Assembly (NCBI RefSeq): GCF_019219025.1
Contig: NZ_JAHUWN010000016.1
Location: 83,736 to 147,735, forward strand
Reading direction: 5' to 3'
DNA from: Bacillus sp. sid0103
GTDB taxonomy: Bacteria > Bacillota > Bacilli > Bacillales_B > DSM-18226
Length of the DNA: 64,000 nt
Part shown: positions 3,851 to 64,000 of the stretch, one piece after another
Layout: each line of letters begins with the position of its first letter
Position numbering within the stretch: the stretch's first letter is position 1
Program-made: the position numbers and the translations under genes
Notes under the pieces: generated by a model
Told to the model about the DNA's origin: nothing
Seen by the model: the letters and a program-made list of their open reading frames with translations, nothing else
Databases searched by the model: none

Positions 3851-4291
3851 TTAATTGCAAAGCATTTTGCGGTTTTGTAAATGCTTTCGTAATCTAACTT
3901 CGGTTCCTCGACCTGGCTGTGAATGAACCTCTACCTCATCCATGAAATTCTCCATGATAGTAAAACCCATACCGGAACGCTCTAAGTCCGGCTTTGTTGT
4001 AAATAATGGCTGACGAGCTTCTTCCACATCGACAATTCCCAATCCAACATCTTTAATGGTTAGATCAATTAAACTATCTTCGATGATTACTTGAATATAA
4101 ACAAGTCCATTCGGATCATTCTCATAACCATGAATAATCGCATTGGTCACTGCTTCTGAAACAACCGTTTTAATTTCTGTCAACTCATCCATATTAGGGT
4201 CTAACTGTGCGATAAATGCTGCCACGGTTACTCGGGCAAATGATTCATTTTGACTTAGTGCACTGAATTGAAGATTCATTTCATTCTTCAC
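3851..4291 (-). CDS. spoIIAB: Anti-sigma F factor and serine kinase SpoIIAB
   Basis: SpoIIAB binds and holds SigF and phosphorylates the anti-anti-sigma factor SpoIIAA. The 146-residue protein shows a GHKL ATP fold: the N box in [12 protein letters not shown] near residue 45, a DVGLGI G1 motif near 81 and RSGMGFTI near 105. It starts with GTG at 4291, directly after the spoIIAA stop (TGAGTG), so translation is likely coupled. The start gives MKNEM, as in B. subtilis. Confidence 0.98.
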
Positions 4292-4642
4292 TCAGGCCAC
4301 CCCCAATCGTTGCAATGCAAATTCTTCTGTCGGTTCCATTTTTATGATCTTAAATAAACCTGACATATCGAATAATCTTTGTATCGCAGGGGAAATTGCA
4401 CAAACCACCATTTCACCGTGTACCTGTTTAATTTGTTTGTATCTGCCTAATATCACGCCTAAGCCAGAACTGTCCATAAAGGCTAGTTGTTCCAGATTTA
4501 AGACAATATGACGAATTTCATTTTTCTCAATGACGGATACCGCTTTTTCACGAAGTTCATCCGCGGTATGATGGTCTAATTCACCGCTTAAACGTATACA
4601 TAGAACGTCATGTTTTGTTTCCATATCAATTTTAAGACTCAC
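4292..4642 (-). CDS. spoIIAA: Anti-sigma F factor antagonist SpoIIAA
   Basis: This 116-residue STAS-domain protein binds SpoIIAB and frees SigF when it is unphosphorylated. The phosphorylation loop [11 protein letters not shown] around residue 58 is intact. The start is GTG at 4642 with AAGGAGGA upstream. It is the first gene of the operon and is preceded by a SigH-type promoter and a Spo0A box, which matches the known early-sporulation control of spoIIA. Confidence 0.98.
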
Positions 4643-4674
4643 TATCCCGTCCTCCTTAATCTGGTATAGTGAGA

Positions 4675-4704
4675 CAATTCTCTTTCGGATTGGTAATTTC
4701 CTTC
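4675..4704 (-). promoter_or_regulatory. SigH-type promoter of spoIIA
   Basis: On the minus strand GAAGGAAAT (4696-4704) fits the SigH -35 consensus RNAGGAWWW. AGAGAATTG (4675-4683) fits -10 RNNGAATWW at all but the last base. The spacer is 12 bases. It lies 32 bases before the spoIIAA start; spoIIA is SigH-dependent in B. subtilis. Confidence 0.75.
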
Positions 4705-4757
4705 TACAAATACAAAACTAGTCGTATTTCGCTAAAAGAAGTGACATATCCGGAAGA

Positions 4758-4764
4758 TTCGACA
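4758..4764 (-). promoter_or_regulatory. Spo0A box upstream of spoIIA
   Basis: TGTCGAA on the minus strand is an exact match to the Spo0A box and lies about 54 bases upstream of the SigH -35. Spo0A~P activates spoIIA in B. subtilis from similar positions. This is notable because spo0A itself is interrupted in this window at 60.27 kb. Confidence 0.6.
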
Positions 4765-4785
4765 GATTCAATAGCGGAAGCGCCC

Positions 4786-4826
4786 GTTTAGTGAAAACCC
4801 TAGTTGCTTGGCGCCCAAGCTAGATG
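4786..4826 (-). repeat. Inverted repeat after dacF
   Basis: GCTTGG-CGC-CCAAGC lies inside a longer imperfect palindrome with CTAG on both sides, 10-50 bases after the dacF stop. On the minus strand GGTTTTC follows, so it may be a weak terminator. The neighbouring motif GAAGCGCCCGTT also occurs after zwf at about 31975-31986, which suggests relics of a dispersed Bacillus repeat. Confidence 0.4.
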
Positions 4827-4835
4827 ATTAGTGAA

Positions 4836-6008
4836 TTATTTTCCAGCCTTTGTGAACATTCCAAAGGAACGTTTATAAAGGGTCCACCATCCCGCTTCTT
4901 TTACATCTTCACTTGCTAATAAAGGACTTTCTACAAAGACTTTGCCATCCTTGATTAATTTTAACGACCCTATCTTATCGCCTTTATTAATGGGTGCTTT
5001 CAGATTTTTTTTAATTGTTATCTTTTGTTTAACATCCTCAGTTTTTTCACCTTTTTTTGTAAGCAAAGAAATTGGCTCGCTTGTAACAGCTTCGATAGAC
5101 TTTACTTGTCCTTTACTAACTCTTGCTTTCGCTATTGTTTGTTCGCGTTTATACATCGGATGTGTTTGATATTGGTTAAACGCAAAGTTTAGCATTTTTG
5201 TTACTTGGGCATTTCTTTCCTTTGAAGTAGGGGCTCCAAACACAACAGCAATTACACGCATACCATTTTTTTGTGCTGTTGCGGTTAAGCAGTACTTTGC
5301 TTCGGCCGTAAAACCAGTTTTAAGTCCATCTACACCAGGGTAGAAACGCACTAATTTATTGGTATTAACAAGCCAGAATTTTTTGTCAGTATTTTCACGA
5401 AGATAGGCTTCATACAAACCAGTAAATTTGGTAATGTCTTCATATTTTAATAGTTCTTTTGCCATTATGGCCATATCATTTGCAGTGCTGAAATGACCAC
5501 TGACTGGAAGTCCAGTTGTATTTTTAAAGAATGTATGTTTTAAGCCAAGTTCTTTAACCTTAGTATTCATCATGTCAACAAAGGCTTCTTCTGAGCCAGC
5601 AATTCTTTCAGCCATAGCAACAGAAGCGTCATTCCCAGAGCCAATCGCAATACCTCTCAGCATTTCCTTCGTTGTCATTTCTTCGCCCGGTTCAAGAAAA
5701 ATTTGGGAACCACCCATCGAAGCTGCATATTCACTTGCACGGATTTTTTCATTCCATTTAAGTTTTCCTTGATCAATTGCTTCCATAATTAAAAGCATGG
5801 TCATAATTTTGGTCATACTTGCCGGTGGCAATTCTTCATTACTGTTTTTCTCATAAAGCACTTTACCTGTATCACGTTCAATTAAAATAGCGGATTTTAC
5901 ATTGTTGACAATATCAGCATTCTTCTTTTCCTCAGCAGCAAAAGCAGATGTACCCAATAAACTAGTAAGTAAAAAAATTGTCACTATCAAAGAGACAAAT
6001 CGTTTCAT
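4836..6008 (-). CDS. dacF: D-alanyl-D-alanine carboxypeptidase DacF
   Basis: DacF is a penicillin-binding protein that trims the pentapeptide of spore peptidoglycan and so affects cortex cross-linking. The 390-residue product has a signal peptide (cleavage after AFA near residue 24) and the peptidase S11 motifs SMTK (S64), SGN (124-126) and KTG (230-232), plus a C-terminal beta-rich domain. The ATG at 6008 is chosen because GGAGGG lies 8 bases upstream; longer starts lack a ribosome site. It lies just upstream of spoIIA, as in B. subtilis, where read-through joins the two. Confidence 0.97.
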   Translation of the reverse strand: MKRFVSLIVTIFLLTSLLGTSAFAAEEKKNADIVNNVKSAILIERDTGKVLYEKNSNEELPPASMTKIMTMLLIMEAIDQGKLKWNEKIRASEYAASMGGSQIFLEPGEEMTTKEMLRGIAIGSGNDASVAMAERIAGSEEAFVDMMNTKVKELGLKHTFFKNTTGLPVSGHFSTANDMAIMAKELLKYEDITKFTGLYEAYLRENTDKKFWLVNTNKLVRFYPGVDGLKTGFTAEAKYCLTATAQKNGMRVIAVVFGAPTSKERNAQVTKMLNFAFNQYQTHPMYKREQTIAKARVSKGQVKSIEAVTSEPISLLTKKGEKTEDVKQKITIKKNLKAPINKGDKIGSLKLIKDGKVFVESPLLASEDVKEAGWWTLYKRSFGMFTKAGK

Positions 6009-60136: not shown

Positions 60137-60164
60137 AAAGCCTTCATTCTTTTGATGAAGGCTT
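60137..60164. terminator. Bidirectional terminator between yycC-like gene and spo0A tail
   Basis: AAGCCTTCAT and ATGAAGGCTT form a perfect 10-bp stem with a 7-base loop. On the minus strand T5 follows, so this is the original spo0A terminator. Confidence 0.85.
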
Positions 60165-60182: not shown

Positions 60183-60272
60183 TCAAGATGCCTTATGCTC
60201 TAGACGAAGCTTATCAGCCACCATGGCAATAAATTCCGAATTAGTTGGCTTCGCCTTCGACATGCTTACGGT
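60183..60272 (-). pseudogene. spo0A: 3' fragment of spo0A, separated from the rest by an inserted element
   Basis: Reading the minus strand, the last 29 codons give [14 protein letters not shown], then [15 protein letters not shown] and TGA, the C-terminus of the sporulation master regulator Spo0A (one change, S for T, from B. subtilis). Upstream of the Thr codon the match stops at once: in place of ...SISSLFGY the frame reads ...TEGKTLID, from element DNA. The rest of spo0A must lie beyond the far end of the element. Whether the element supplies a replacement 3' end there cannot be seen in this window. Confidence 0.92.
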
Positions 60273-60285
60273 ATCTATCAACGTT
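60255..60285. other. Left attachment junction (attL) in spo0A
   Basis: Spo0A homology ends at 60272-60274 (the bases coding T and part of the preceding Y). The recombination core must lie in or just left of this point. The exact core needs the right end of the element. Confidence 0.6.
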
Positions 60286-60366
60286 TTGCCTTCGGTATTA
60301 GTGTACCATTCCGATAAATTCATCGCAATCTCATACGAAAATTCATCGGAGTAAGGGGACGTAAAA

Positions 60367-61386
60367 ATGCAGAAGTTTCACTTTAAACAACGTAGTAAAA
60401 TTAGCGTAAAAATGGACATCGAAAAACATATCGAAAAATTCTTGGAAGCACGACGGCTGGAAAATAAATCGCCTAAAACGATTAAGTCGTATGGTCAAAC
60501 GCTAGGCAAGTTTGCGGAATGGTTAGAATGCGCTAATTCATCCGAAATCACCTCGGACATTATTCGGGAATACATTCGCTATATGACCGAAGAAAAGGAA
60601 AAGTGGAGCGATCACCCAACGAACCCAACGCAAGGAGTCGGAGTGTCGCCTCGTACTATTAACAATATTATCCGAGTCCTACGAATATTCTTTAATTTTC
60701 TAGTTAAGGAACGAATTATCTCGCAGAACCCAGCGGCCGGCATTAATTATCAGAAGGAACAAAACGATACTTTCGAGATATTTTCGGATGACGACGTTAT
60801 CAAGTTATTAAACGCTCCGAATAAGAAAATGTATACCGGCTTTCGCGATTACGTTATGATGCTGGTATTAACAGACACCGGCTTACGCATTAGCGAATTG
60901 ACGAGTATAAAACGCGGTGATATTAACTTCCAAACCCGTCAAATCGTAATTCACGCAGAGAACTCAAAAAAGAGCGAAACGCGCGTGGTCCCAATTTCGC
61001 AAAAAACTACGAAGGAAATTGCGGAGCTGGCCGACTTTATTAACGGTGACGACAACGATTATGTATTTCTAACGCAGTTCGGTGAGCGCTACCTTGCTGA
61101 TACCTTCGCGAAAATGCTTAAGAAATACGGCAAGAAGGCCGGCATTCAAAACGTGAGGGTATCGCCTCATACTTTCCGCAATTATATGGCGGTCAAGTTT
61201 CTTAAGTCAAAAGGTGATCCGTTTACATTAATGAGGATACTCGGACATAAAGACATATCGATGACAAATCGCTACATTAAATATAGTGACATGGATATAT
61301 CGGAGCAGTTTGAGATGTCCAGCCCGGTTATGAATTTAATTGACTCCGGGAACAATCGGAAGCGCGGAAGGTTGAAGTTTACTTAA
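60367..61386 (+). CDS. Tyrosine recombinase (element integrase)
   Basis: The 339-residue integrase has an N-terminal core-binding domain (about 17-120, with [16 protein letters not shown]) and a catalytic domain with R174 (TGLRISEL), K201/K202, H268-x-x-R271 (SPHTFRNYM), H294 (LGHKD) and nucleophile Y303. All catalytic residues are present, so it should be active. AAGGGG lies 8 bases before the ATG. Only about 95 bases separate its start from the spo0A junction, the usual place for an integrase next to attL. It has no N-terminal arm-binding domain typical of lambda Int. Confidence 0.95.
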
Positions 61387-61394
61387 TAATAGAA

Positions 61395-61418
61395 GAAAGC
61401 CGTCCTAATTACTGGGCG
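61395..61418. terminator. Hairpin between the integrase and the convergent membrane gene
   Basis: GCCGTCC and GGGCGGC pair (one G-U) around 8 bases, followed by a T-rich tract on the plus strand. It overlaps the 3' end of the minus-strand gene. Confidence 0.65.
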
Positions 61419-61657
61419 GCCTTATCTTTTTTCAGGTATTTAATGATGTAAGATAGTCCGATTAACAATCCCCCGTTTTGTAGCGGATAAACTATATCAT
61501 TTAAAATTTGCGTGATACGTATAGGATCTGGTTTCTCACCGTCAGCAACATATTGAGTCGCGTTATAATAAATCGTTGAATCAATTCCACTAATTATTCC
61601 TATAACTATAACGACCCATCCCGTAATAAAAAGTATTAAAGTGATATTTTTCTCCAT
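61409..61657 (-). CDS. Small membrane protein, unknown function
   Basis: This 82-residue protein has two hydrophobic segments (about 5-24 and 58-74) with a polar stretch between them containing YYNATQYVADGEKPD. It is not recognised. The two-helix size range is shared by holin-like and small phage superinfection-exclusion proteins, but nothing in the sequence proves either. GGGGGCGGTGC lies upstream of the ATG as a weak ribosome site. Confidence 0.7.
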   Translation of the reverse strand: MEKNITLILFITGWVVIVIGIISGIDSTIYYNATQYVADGEKPDPIRITQILNDIVYPLQNGGLLIGLSYIIKYLKKDKAAQ

Positions 61658-61927
61658 TTCGCACCGCCCCCTACTAATCTATATGTTTATTGTACTATAA
61701 AATATTCAGAAAATCAGTAAATATTTACCAGCATCAGTCTTCGTCAATCCGCGTCACTATGCGTTTTTAGGCATAAAGAAAGTCGCCACGTCGCAATGAC
61801 GAGGCGTTGTTCAAAAGGACAGCCCCATAGGACTTCCCATGTAATATTTTTAGTTCGCAATTAGTTCCAATTATGTACCATTTCCTAATGAATGTTATTA
61901 TGATTTAGTGGAAGGAGGTGGATACAA
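61658..61927. promoter_or_regulatory. Divergent intergenic region in the element
   Basis: The 270-base gap holds the promoters of the two divergent genes. It includes a hairpin, CGCC-A-CGTC with GACG-A-GGCG (61783-61805). A TATGAT near 61900 could be the -10 of the 207-residue gene. No known regulator site is seen. Confidence 0.4.
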
Positions 61928-62551
61928 ATGGATGATAAACTTAACTGGAAAGACAAATTAAATTTAACTGTTGAAACAGGTCTGCAACTTGTTCCTTATG
62001 TTGGTGGTGCTTTAGCCACTGCTTATTTTGGAACAAAGCAAGAAAAGCGTTTTAAAAGATTAGAGACATTTTATCAAGAATTCTCACACCGAATAGAACA
62101 GCTTCAATTGCAATTGCCTCCTGTTGAATCACATGATCAAGATAAACTCATTGCTCTTATCGAAGAGTTGAATGCGAAAGTTGAAAATGAGATTACAGAA
62201 CAAAAAAGAGCATATTTAAAAAAGTATCTTTATAATATACTTTCATCGCCAACTAACGAAAACTTCGATGAAAGAAGGTTCTTCCTAGATACGTTATCTA
62301 GCATGACTCTTTTAGAGTGTGAAATTCTAACTTTTTTGTATCATCAAAATCAACCTGTTAAAGTAGGAACAATCACAAAGCCAGGATTGGTTCAATATGC
62401 TATTGTTGGTGCAATTGGACGATTAAAAATGTATGGCTTTTTACGAACATCAACTCAAGATCTTCAAGTTGGTGATGTCGATAATACTCTATTAGAATTA
62501 GTTACTCCTAGTGATTTTGGACTAAATTTTATTAAATTTTGTTTGGAGTAA
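61928..62551 (+). CDS. Unknown element protein with N-terminal membrane-like segment
   Basis: The 207-residue product has a short amphipathic or hydrophobic segment (GLQLVPYVGGALATAYFG, near 18-35), a charged coiled-coil-like region (36-110) and a C-terminal part resembling a winged helix (LLECEILTFLYHQNQPVKVG, then IGRLKMYGFLR). GGAAGGAGGTGG precedes the ATG by 6 bases and a strong terminator follows. It is AT-rich compared with the integrase. It could be cargo, such as defence or exclusion; no family is recognised. Confidence 0.8.
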   Translation: MDDKLNWKDKLNLTVETGLQLVPYVGGALATAYFGTKQEKRFKRLETFYQEFSHRIEQLQLQLPPVESHDQDKLIALIEELNAKVENEITEQKRAYLKKYLYNILSSPTNENFDERRFFLDTLSSMTLLECEILTFLYHQNQPVKVGTITKPGLVQYAIVGAIGRLKMYGFLRTSTQDLQVGDVDNTLLELVTPSDFGLNFIKFCLE

Positions 62552-62556
62552 CAGAG

Positions 62557-62581
62557 ACCTGAGTTTTCTCAGGTTTTTTTA
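62557..62581 (+). terminator. Terminator after the 207-residue gene
   Basis: ACCTGAG and CTCAGGT form a 7-bp stem with a 4-base loop, then T7. The opposite strand of this site encodes the end of a small minus-strand ORF. Confidence 0.9.
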
Positions 62582-62697
62582 TTTATTATTATTAAGATTG
62601 TAAAACAACTTAATATAAAAAGTAACCAAATAAACCAATACCTTATTAGGTGTTGCAAAGGTGTTAAATTAATTAAATCCTGAAAAAAATGAGCCAT
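62569..62697 (-). CDS. Candidate 42-residue membrane peptide in the element
   Basis: The minus strand encodes MAHFFQDLINLTPLQHLIRY and then one strongly hydrophobic helix (WFIWLLFILSCFTILIII) ending NKKT. GGAGGTGG lies 9 bases before the ATG. The ORF overlaps the terminator of the plus-strand gene tail to tail. The size and layout resemble type I toxins or small phage membrane peptides, but this is inference. Confidence 0.5.
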   Translation of the reverse strand: MAHFFQDLINLTPLQHLIRYWFIWLLFILSCFTILIIINKKT

Positions 62698-62718
62698 ATA
62701 CTTCAACCACCTCCAAGT

Positions 62719-62777
62719 TTATTCTAACAAAGAAAACGCCTTTATTAGAATAAAACAAATAAAGCGTTTAAATAAAA
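62719..62777 (-). promoter_or_regulatory. Overlapping inverted repeats upstream of the 42-residue ORF
   Basis: TTATTCTAA (62719-62727) and TTAGAATAA (62745-62753) are perfect arms. A second pair, AACGCCTTTATT and AATAAAGCGTT, overlaps the right arm. The two hairpins cannot form together, as in attenuators. It lies just upstream of the ribosome site. Confidence 0.45.
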
Positions 62778-62863
62778 AGGACGCTCAGCAGAAACCGAAC
62801 GCCAATACAAGAGGTTCTTTGCTCCATGCGACCAACAATGGAAAATCGCACTTCATCGCAAAA

Positions 62864-62885
62864 TAAAAACGCCCTATTAGGCGTA
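62864..62885 (-). terminator. Terminator at the end of the 161-residue gene
   Basis: On the minus strand ACGCC and GGCGT pair around 6 bases and T5 follows. The stop codon lies in the hairpin. Confidence 0.7.
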
Positions 62886-63362
62886 TCTTGCTAATACTGC
62901 GGTTTTCAGTTTGCAATACTTTGCTGCATCAGTAACCGTCTTGCTTAATAATGCCTTCTCGAACAATTTACTCAGGTTTTCTATATCGTCCTTAATACCG
63001 GTTACGTCGATGGTAGCAGGATCGACGTCTTGACCACGAAACAGAATATCGTCGTCGCCCTCGATAAGTAGTTTACCGAAATCAGTTATCGAGAATTTAA
63101 TTTCCGACTGATTCACCGCTGGAATCGTTTTTTGCATGTGTAGTTTCCACGCTTTCGTATTAAAGGCAATTACTTTAACCGAATTAATTCCGGAAGGTAT
63201 AATTACCCGATCCCCGACGCAATATTCCATTTCGTATCCTCCGGTTCCTTGCAATGAAATCACGATATTGCTACCGTCCGTTTCAACGCGAGCAAATCCC
63301 CATCCCGTCGAGTCTACCGTTTGATTACCTACACCTGTAACTACTTTTCTTTCAATAGCCAT
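62877..63362 (-). CDS. Phage-like protein of unknown function
   Basis: The 161-residue protein has a beta-rich N-terminal two-thirds (GTGGYEMEYCVGDRVIIPSG near 40) and a helical C-terminus (KDDIENLSKLFEKALL). It looks like a small virion or tail accessory protein but is not recognised. Its ATG overlaps the stop of the upstream gene (TAATG), the tight coupling common in phage structural operons. It ends at a terminator, so it is last in its operon. Confidence 0.75.
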   Translation of the reverse strand: MAIERKVVTGVGNQTVDSTGWGFARVETDGSNIVISLQGTGGYEMEYCVGDRVIIPSGINSVKVIAFNTKAWKLHMQKTIPAVNQSEIKFSITDFGKLLIEGDDDILFRGQDVDPATIDVTGIKDDIENLSKLFEKALLSKTVTDAAKYCKLKTAVLARYA

Positions 63363-64000
63363 TATTGATTACCCCCTAAGTTTAATTCTCCGTCACGAGC
63401 TTTTTGTTCCATAATTGCATTGAGACTGTCGTAAGCCTGGTCAACTTTACTCTTTTGCTTTTCAACAACTTCCAAAGGATCAACGAACACCGGCATTGGT
63501 TCGTCATTCTTCTCGAAATAAATTTCCGGATTTTGATAATGGCGGACTACTTCTGGCGTAAATAGTTCGGAGATTATCGAGTAATCAACATTCACCGAAG
63601 GATCATCGCCAGGTATCATCAGCAAGAATAGTTTGTTATCAATTGTGTTATCGACTTCTTCGATTACGTCGTAAGCTTCCGCAACATCAACTGGGGTATG
63701 GTCGGCTTTTAGTTTATCGAAAGCCTTTGAAAGCCCAATTTTATGTTCACCGGTTTGGAATTGACCAGCTAACTCATAGAAGTTCTCTAAAACTAGACTA
63801 GCGTATGCCGAATCAGGCGTCTTTTGTAAGAAAGACTGTAAATCGTTGAATGCGGATTTCTCGTCTTTAAGCGCCATTTTAAACCTCAATTCCGAAAAAT
63901 CACGGCTAAACTTTGCGCGAGTTGCTTCATCCGCTGATACGAAACTCTTCTCGATTGTTTCCTTCGCTAGTTTCTTAGCATTAGTTAAGTAAAGCTGATA
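63362..64000 (-). CDS. Element protein, N-terminus beyond window
   Basis: The frame is open from 64000 to the stop at 63362, giving 212 residues with no N-terminus in view. The ATG at 63877 and the TTG at 63889 are internal: coding-like sequence (KKLAKETIEKSFVSADEATR, then FSELRFKM) continues upstream of them. The protein is acidic and mostly helical, with a proline-rich stretch near PMPVFVDPLEVV. It is not recognised; position suggests a phage structural or assembly protein. Confidence 0.75.
   Translation of the reverse strand, partial: YQLYLTNAKKLAKETIEKSFVSADEATRAKFSRDFSELRFKMALKDEKSAFNDLQSFLQKTPDSAYASLVLENFYELAGQFQTGEHKIGLSKAFDKLKADHTPVDVAEAYDVIEEVDNTIDNKLFLLMIPGDDPSVNVDYSIISELFTPEVVRHYQNPEIYFEKNDEPMPVFVDPLEVVEKQKSKVDQAYDSLNAIMEQKARDGELNLGGNQ

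Follow-up and report, generated by a model that had tools for sequence, protein, structure and literature searches.

The stretch analysed here, hereafter the window, comprises 64,000 nucleotides of Bacillus sp. sid0103 (contig NZ_JAHUWN010000016.1, positions 83,736 to 147,735 of the forward strand). Near its right end, the last codons of spo0A, the gene for the master regulator of sporulation, lie beside a tyrosine recombinase gene, from which the genes of an integrated element continue to the window edge. The junction consists of the following features.

60138..60164, minus strand: terminator hairpin AAGCCTTCATC...GATGAAGGCTT behind the spo0A fragment (sequence).
60183..60272, minus strand: 3' remnant of spo0A, the attachment-site half beside the recombinase, predicted to be a displaced duplicate (translation, tblastn, DNA comparison).
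60273..60366, no strand: element side of the attachment site, holding TTTATCGGAAT and two YCGATRAA boxes (sequence, comparison with lineage A, described below).
60367..61386, plus strand: tyrosine recombinase (element integrase) of 339 residues, lineage A (open reading frame, Pfam, PHROGs, tree).

Translation of the minus strand from 60272 to 60183 yielded the last 29 codons and the stop codon of spo0A (90 bp). The 29 residues (60272-60186) were 100% identical to the Spo0A end of the relative L003 in a tblastn search of the window (E = 3e-13), for which the query was the L003 Spo0A of 235 residues, taken from the first in-frame Met after the first motif located. All other matches of this query across the whole window had E values of 3.9 or worse; a second spo0A within the window was rejected, since the fragment gave the sole significant match. 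The DNA likeness to spo0A of the 14 closest relatives compared ended at a Thr codon. The recombinase frame begins 95 bp past the fragment, at 60367, and matches PF00589 (E = 6e-34) and PHROG 1 “integrase” (E = 3e-53). The hairpin at 60138-60164 is probably the native spo0A terminator, because close relatives, L005 and L008 for example, were seen by eye to have a similar hairpin 3' of the gene. Thus, a preliminary description of this DNA was correct in reporting the last 29 codons with their terminator, the abrupt stop of homology at a Thr codon and a complete tyrosine recombinase about 95 bases further on.

The left side of the window is ordinary chromosome, because the Bcd protein encoded near the fragment is 99% identical to that of Neobacillus sp. 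SuZ13 and of two other relatives, in which spo0A stands at about the same distance from bcd as in the window. Of the 45 loci compared, SuZ13 came closest, with 86.7% DNA identity over 12.1 kb of aligned flank, and on this likeness the host flank can be called Neobacillus-like.

The far junction of the element lies to the right of position 64000, beyond the window, and the far end was judged from relatives. Recombinases of the window's lineage, termed lineage A, were found in five of 398 class-wide genomes (G881, G677, G709, G632 and G643) in a search with the Paenibacillus recombinase P0022 (E ≤ 1e-90); the class and order searches scored part of the candidates per genome, so that lineage A counts are lower bounds. 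The five enzymes showed 50-56% identity to the window's enzyme, and all six stood on one side of the split from a second lineage, lineage B, with a support of 100/100 in an unrooted tree; the A side also holds enzymes, including that of G103, that are not known to be located at spo0A. In every one of the five genomes, the region upstream of the recombinase gene holds a spo0A 3' fragment on the opposite strand, in a layout like that of the window, and a complete spo0A with receiver and Spo0A_C domains is also present. The complete gene is on the fragment's contig in four genomes, at a distance of about 63 kb (G881), 61 kb (G677), 39 kb (G709) and 40 kb (G632), and on another contig in G643. The fragment and the complete copy form a direct repeat of 29 (G881), 26 (G677), 20 (G709), 20 (G632) and 25 (G643) codons, including the stop. 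In four of the five (not G643), the stop codon of the complete copy is followed, 196-204 bp on, by the start of a hairpin with a T-rich stretch behind it, and the element therefore seems to bring its own terminator.

In G643 (L149), the repeat extends 44 bp beyond the stop codon, into element-like sequence. Such an overrun would be expected of two elements in tandem, or of a circular form, and it suggests the presence of a spo0A end in the attachment site of the element itself.

Lineage B came to light among 80 loci fetched by Bcd. At three of them, those of SuZ13 (L001), Neobacillus sp. OS1-33 (L005) and Cytobacillus citreus (L068), the spo0A end proved to be a fragment abutting foreign DNA, and all three genomes carry a complete spo0A, at 19, 11 and 36 kb from the fragment, respectively. 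The two copies are direct repeats that run from inside the gene to just beyond the stop codon. The lineage B tyrosine recombinase is 28-30% identical to the window's enzyme; its gene has the orientation of the complete spo0A and begins 117-158 bp downstream of it. Four of the 80 loci (L013, L030, L075 and L080) had no spo0A end, and three (L042, L047 and L056) were cut at the locus edge.

The frequency of such insertions in the family was estimated by counting an exact DNA pattern for a 12-residue Spo0A peptide in 193 genomes. The pattern had at least one match in 179 genomes, which defines the survey (the other 14 stood outside it), and two matches in eight. In five of these eight (G001, G003, G030, G033 and G126), an element insertion lies within a single contig. 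Addition of OS1-33 (G002), in which the fragment is changed past the pattern, brings the count to 6 of 193, a lower bound; it leaves out G053 and G130, which have two different spo0A genes on different contigs and are probably mixed assemblies, and G060, in which contigs end at the spo0A 3' end. All six share the order complete spo0A, recombinase, element and fragment, and in each the complete spo0A frame spans 271-299 codons between stops and encodes both a receiver and a C-terminal domain.

Taken together, the elements at spo0A left a complete spo0A frame in all 11 cases (5/5 in lineage A and 6/6 in lineage B). In these 11 pairs, the leftover and complete copies share the last 20-68 codons of the gene, stop included; 24 shared codons differ synonymously and five non-synonymously. 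Three of these five fall on the final shared codon, for which the crossover makes the count uncertain. The OS1-33 copies differ by Ala/Thr, with Thr in the stranded fragment, while G033 (L127, complete spo0A at 490-1338) has Tyr in the complete copy versus Ser in the stranded fragment. The other Bacillaceae Spo0A ends compared have Ser or Thr at this position. The Tyr of G033 is possibly an element-made change of a working Spo0A.

From these comparisons, we consider it highly probable (about 0.93) that the window's element is integrated at the 3' end of spo0A and supplies an in-frame end, so that Spo0A is full length and sporulation does not depend on excision. A prophage-type element would have integrated site-specifically, via its tyrosine recombinase, into the spo0A 3' end of a Neobacillus-like host. 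Its attachment site would carry a copy of roughly the last 20-30 spo0A codons with the stop, and integration would provide the chromosomal 5' part of the gene with a replacement 3' end, in frame, at the far junction to the right of 64000, while the native end would stay at 60183-60272, next to the recombinase. Most likely, then, the fragment is a duplicate displaced by integration, and the spo0A frame runs intact across the far junction, which we infer to look like that of the relatives. Spo0A would stay full length, and sporulation should therefore not depend on excision. The preliminary description had offered two cases, namely restoration of spo0A at the far junction by a 3' end of the element's own, or a spo0A that is off until excision; the former agrees with 5/5 lineage A and 6/6 lineage B elements, while the latter found no support.

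Several observations weigh against this reading. The window's own far junction is outside the window, so that a complete spo0A there is unseen, and a deletion at the far end of this particular element is possible. The window recombinase has relatives of 96% and 81% identity in the protein database, but the nearest ones placed on a genome are 50-56% identical. G103, with a recombinase 51% identical to the window's, does not sit at spo0A, and recombinase similarity alone therefore does not fix the target; the target of the window's element is fixed by the spo0A fragment itself. Two short sequences link the window to lineage A beyond the recombinase protein, but they are unevenly kept. TTTATCGGAAT occurs at the same place in three of the five lineage A relatives. 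TTTATYGGAAT is found in the window, G881, G677 and G643, the four sequences that the alignment around it took in, at 135-136 bp ahead of the last base of the fragment's stop codon, but it is not at that place in G709 and G632. YCGATRAA has two copies in the window's interval between recombinase and fragment versus 0.3 per kb in positions 1-60000. In G881, G677, G709, G632 and G643, it has 0, 0, 1, 1 and 0 copies on the recombinase side, where it is thus missing in three of five, and 3, 2, 1, 1 and 1 copies on the far side. These boxes may be recombinase arm sites, for which the counts give partial support.

An assembly artefact at 60.27 kb was judged unlikely, since the same arrangement of recombinase and fragment is found in five other genomes. 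We also regard it as very improbable that spo0A is truly split and, like sigK with its skin element, becomes whole again solely through precise excision, which would make sporulation excision-dependent in an undifferentiated cell. The window itself shows the broken end only, and several sporulation genes are split by excising elements, as described in the available parts of the reports (PMC5595907, PMC10747680, PMC6957869). However, the sporulation gene-intervening systems use serine recombinases, according to the available part of one of these (PMC5595907), whereas the window's enzyme is of the tyrosine type, and the available part of another places gene-intervening elements almost all in mother-cell genes (PMC6957869). 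Furthermore, such a split would require a far junction that lacks the spo0A end, none of the 11 related elements left broken halves only, and the idea that spo0A is off until excision was therefore rejected. Also very improbable is a permanent loss of Spo0A through deletion or rearrangement of the far end, which would make the fragment a relic in a lineage that no longer sporulates. Environmental isolates may lose the ability to sporulate, but there is no sign of decay at this locus, because the fragment is 100% identical to its relative over 29 residues and the 339 codons of the recombinase form an uninterrupted frame.

The proposed integration at the 3' end of spo0A has a close parallel in e14 of Escherichia coli K-12. 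As far as the accessible parts of the reports describe it, e14 inserts in the 3' part of a conserved protein-coding gene, icd, and the upstream copy keeps an intact frame with 54 C-terminal residues, while a 165-bp duplicate (icdC) with 12 nucleotide changes and two conservative residue changes is left on the other side (PMC11148124, PMC6379469). The spo0A fragment of the window is the counterpart of icdC. Like e14/icd, the window has a recombinase gene adjoining the attachment site and a displaced 3' gene end at one junction, with the terminator hairpin still behind it. The gene, hosts and elements are different, and spo0A is used by two distant recombinase lineages. The elements skin in sigK, SPbeta in spsM, vfbin in spoVFB, gin in gerE and yin in yabG are likewise mobile elements inside sporulation genes. 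In the portions of the literature at hand, their genes are split and restored on excision by serine recombinases (PMC5595907, PMC10747680, PMC6957869). In contrast, the enzyme of the window's element belongs to the PF00589 tyrosine type and not to the serine type of the skin/SPbeta/gin elements, and spo0A of the relatives is whole while the element is integrated.

The end of spo0A is thus most likely a docking site rather than a sporulation switch, and it is shared by two distant tyrosine recombinase lineages. The hosts include Bacillaceae as well as Paenibacillus- and Brevibacillus-like bacteria, the latter two labels resting on the Spo0A ends and the names of recombinase relatives. Some viral contigs that look clostridial by eye also carry spo0A ends. 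The mechanism of integration is already known, while spo0A as its target is apparently new: no report of spo0A as an attachment site was found among the papers listed by searches that named spo0A in an open-licence library, most subscription journals being outside its scope. The elements overwrite about 20-68 Spo0A codons (stop included) and leave the protein nearly unchanged. A spo0A fragment alone is therefore no ground for calling such strains sporulation-negative. It also becomes testable whether the element-supplied end alters Spo0A expression or activity. We consider it unlikely that docked elements tune spo0A, with the supplied C-terminal end and the element sequence or terminator behind it altering the level or activity of Spo0A; if they did, lysogens would enter sporulation differently, and the decisions of phage and cell would be coupled.

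The element itself extends over 3.7 kb of the window, with the following genes beyond the recombinase.

61409..61657, minus strand: small protein of 82 residues (open reading frame).
61928..62551, plus strand: protein of 207 residues, PHROG 11520, a family that assigns no function (open reading frame, PHROGs).
62877..63362, minus strand: protein of 161 residues without a family match in Pfam or PHROGs (open reading frame).
63362..64000, minus strand: protein of at least 212 residues that runs past the window edge, without a family match in Pfam or PHROGs (open reading frame).

No structural phage genes were found by Pfam and PHROGs in these 3.7 kb. The G881 element encodes portal, head, sheath, tape measure and baseplate proteins, and the G632 element a terminase and a tape-measure-like protein; these two sampled lineage A elements are phages, and the window's element may be one as well. 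When the four other element proteins of the window were compared with the element pieces, a relative was found for the 82-residue protein only, with 57% identity, in the viral contig L116, which has a spo0A 3' fragment and an endolysin gene.

Searches with the window recombinase itself found no relative among the genome contigs and viral contigs. At limits of 1e-60, 1e-70 and 1e-80, respectively, and with part of the first-look candidates scored in many genomes, 61 genus genomes yielded two relatives of 36-37% identity, 193 family genomes one of 51%, and 397 order genomes none. The best matches in the phage collection were Bacillus phages vB_BauS_KLEB27-1 (35%) and phi18-2 (31%), whose recombinases are distant and which are not among nine phage records that match the Spo0A C-terminal peptide. 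Those nine (H21-H29), unannotated records from human faeces, match the 37-residue peptide with 53-69% identity. The Spo0A C-terminal Pfam domain is enriched on gut mobile elements and was read as sporulation cargo, in the available part of one study (PMC6907783).

Viral stretches with spo0A ends numbered 18 in all, and the results cover those named here. Lineage A recombinases lie beside spo0A fragments in three viral contigs (L106, L109 and L112), and lineage B-like recombinases near spo0A ends in three others (L103, L104 and L107). L112 (1-8515) and L117 (53176-65838) are the two ends of one viral contig of 65,838 bases, which has the recombinase with a spo0A end and, at its other end, a further spo0A 3' end that points the same way. 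The contigs L102, L105, L108 and L114 carry spo0A 3' ends of clostridial look (a label given by eye), and these stretches had no match to a tyrosine recombinase profile or a simple serine recombinase motif.

Three lineage B elements, those of SuZ13, OS1-33 and G030 (L091-L093, L125), have a hairpin with a T-rich tail, CCCAATAAATC...GATTTATTGGGTTTTG, between spo0A and the recombinase gene, about 100-160 bp after the complete spo0A. The expression of the lineage B recombinase may depend on read-through from upstream, because this hairpin stands just before the likely ribosome site of the recombinase. Among the Bcd loci, L067 of Mesobacillus boroniphilus has spo0A in two frames (about 4198-5000), broken about 80 residues in, which is either a draft sequencing error or a real loss. 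By eye, the SuZ13 element (L091) seems to encode a DNA cytosine methylase together with a Vsr-like nuclease, which suggests defence cargo.

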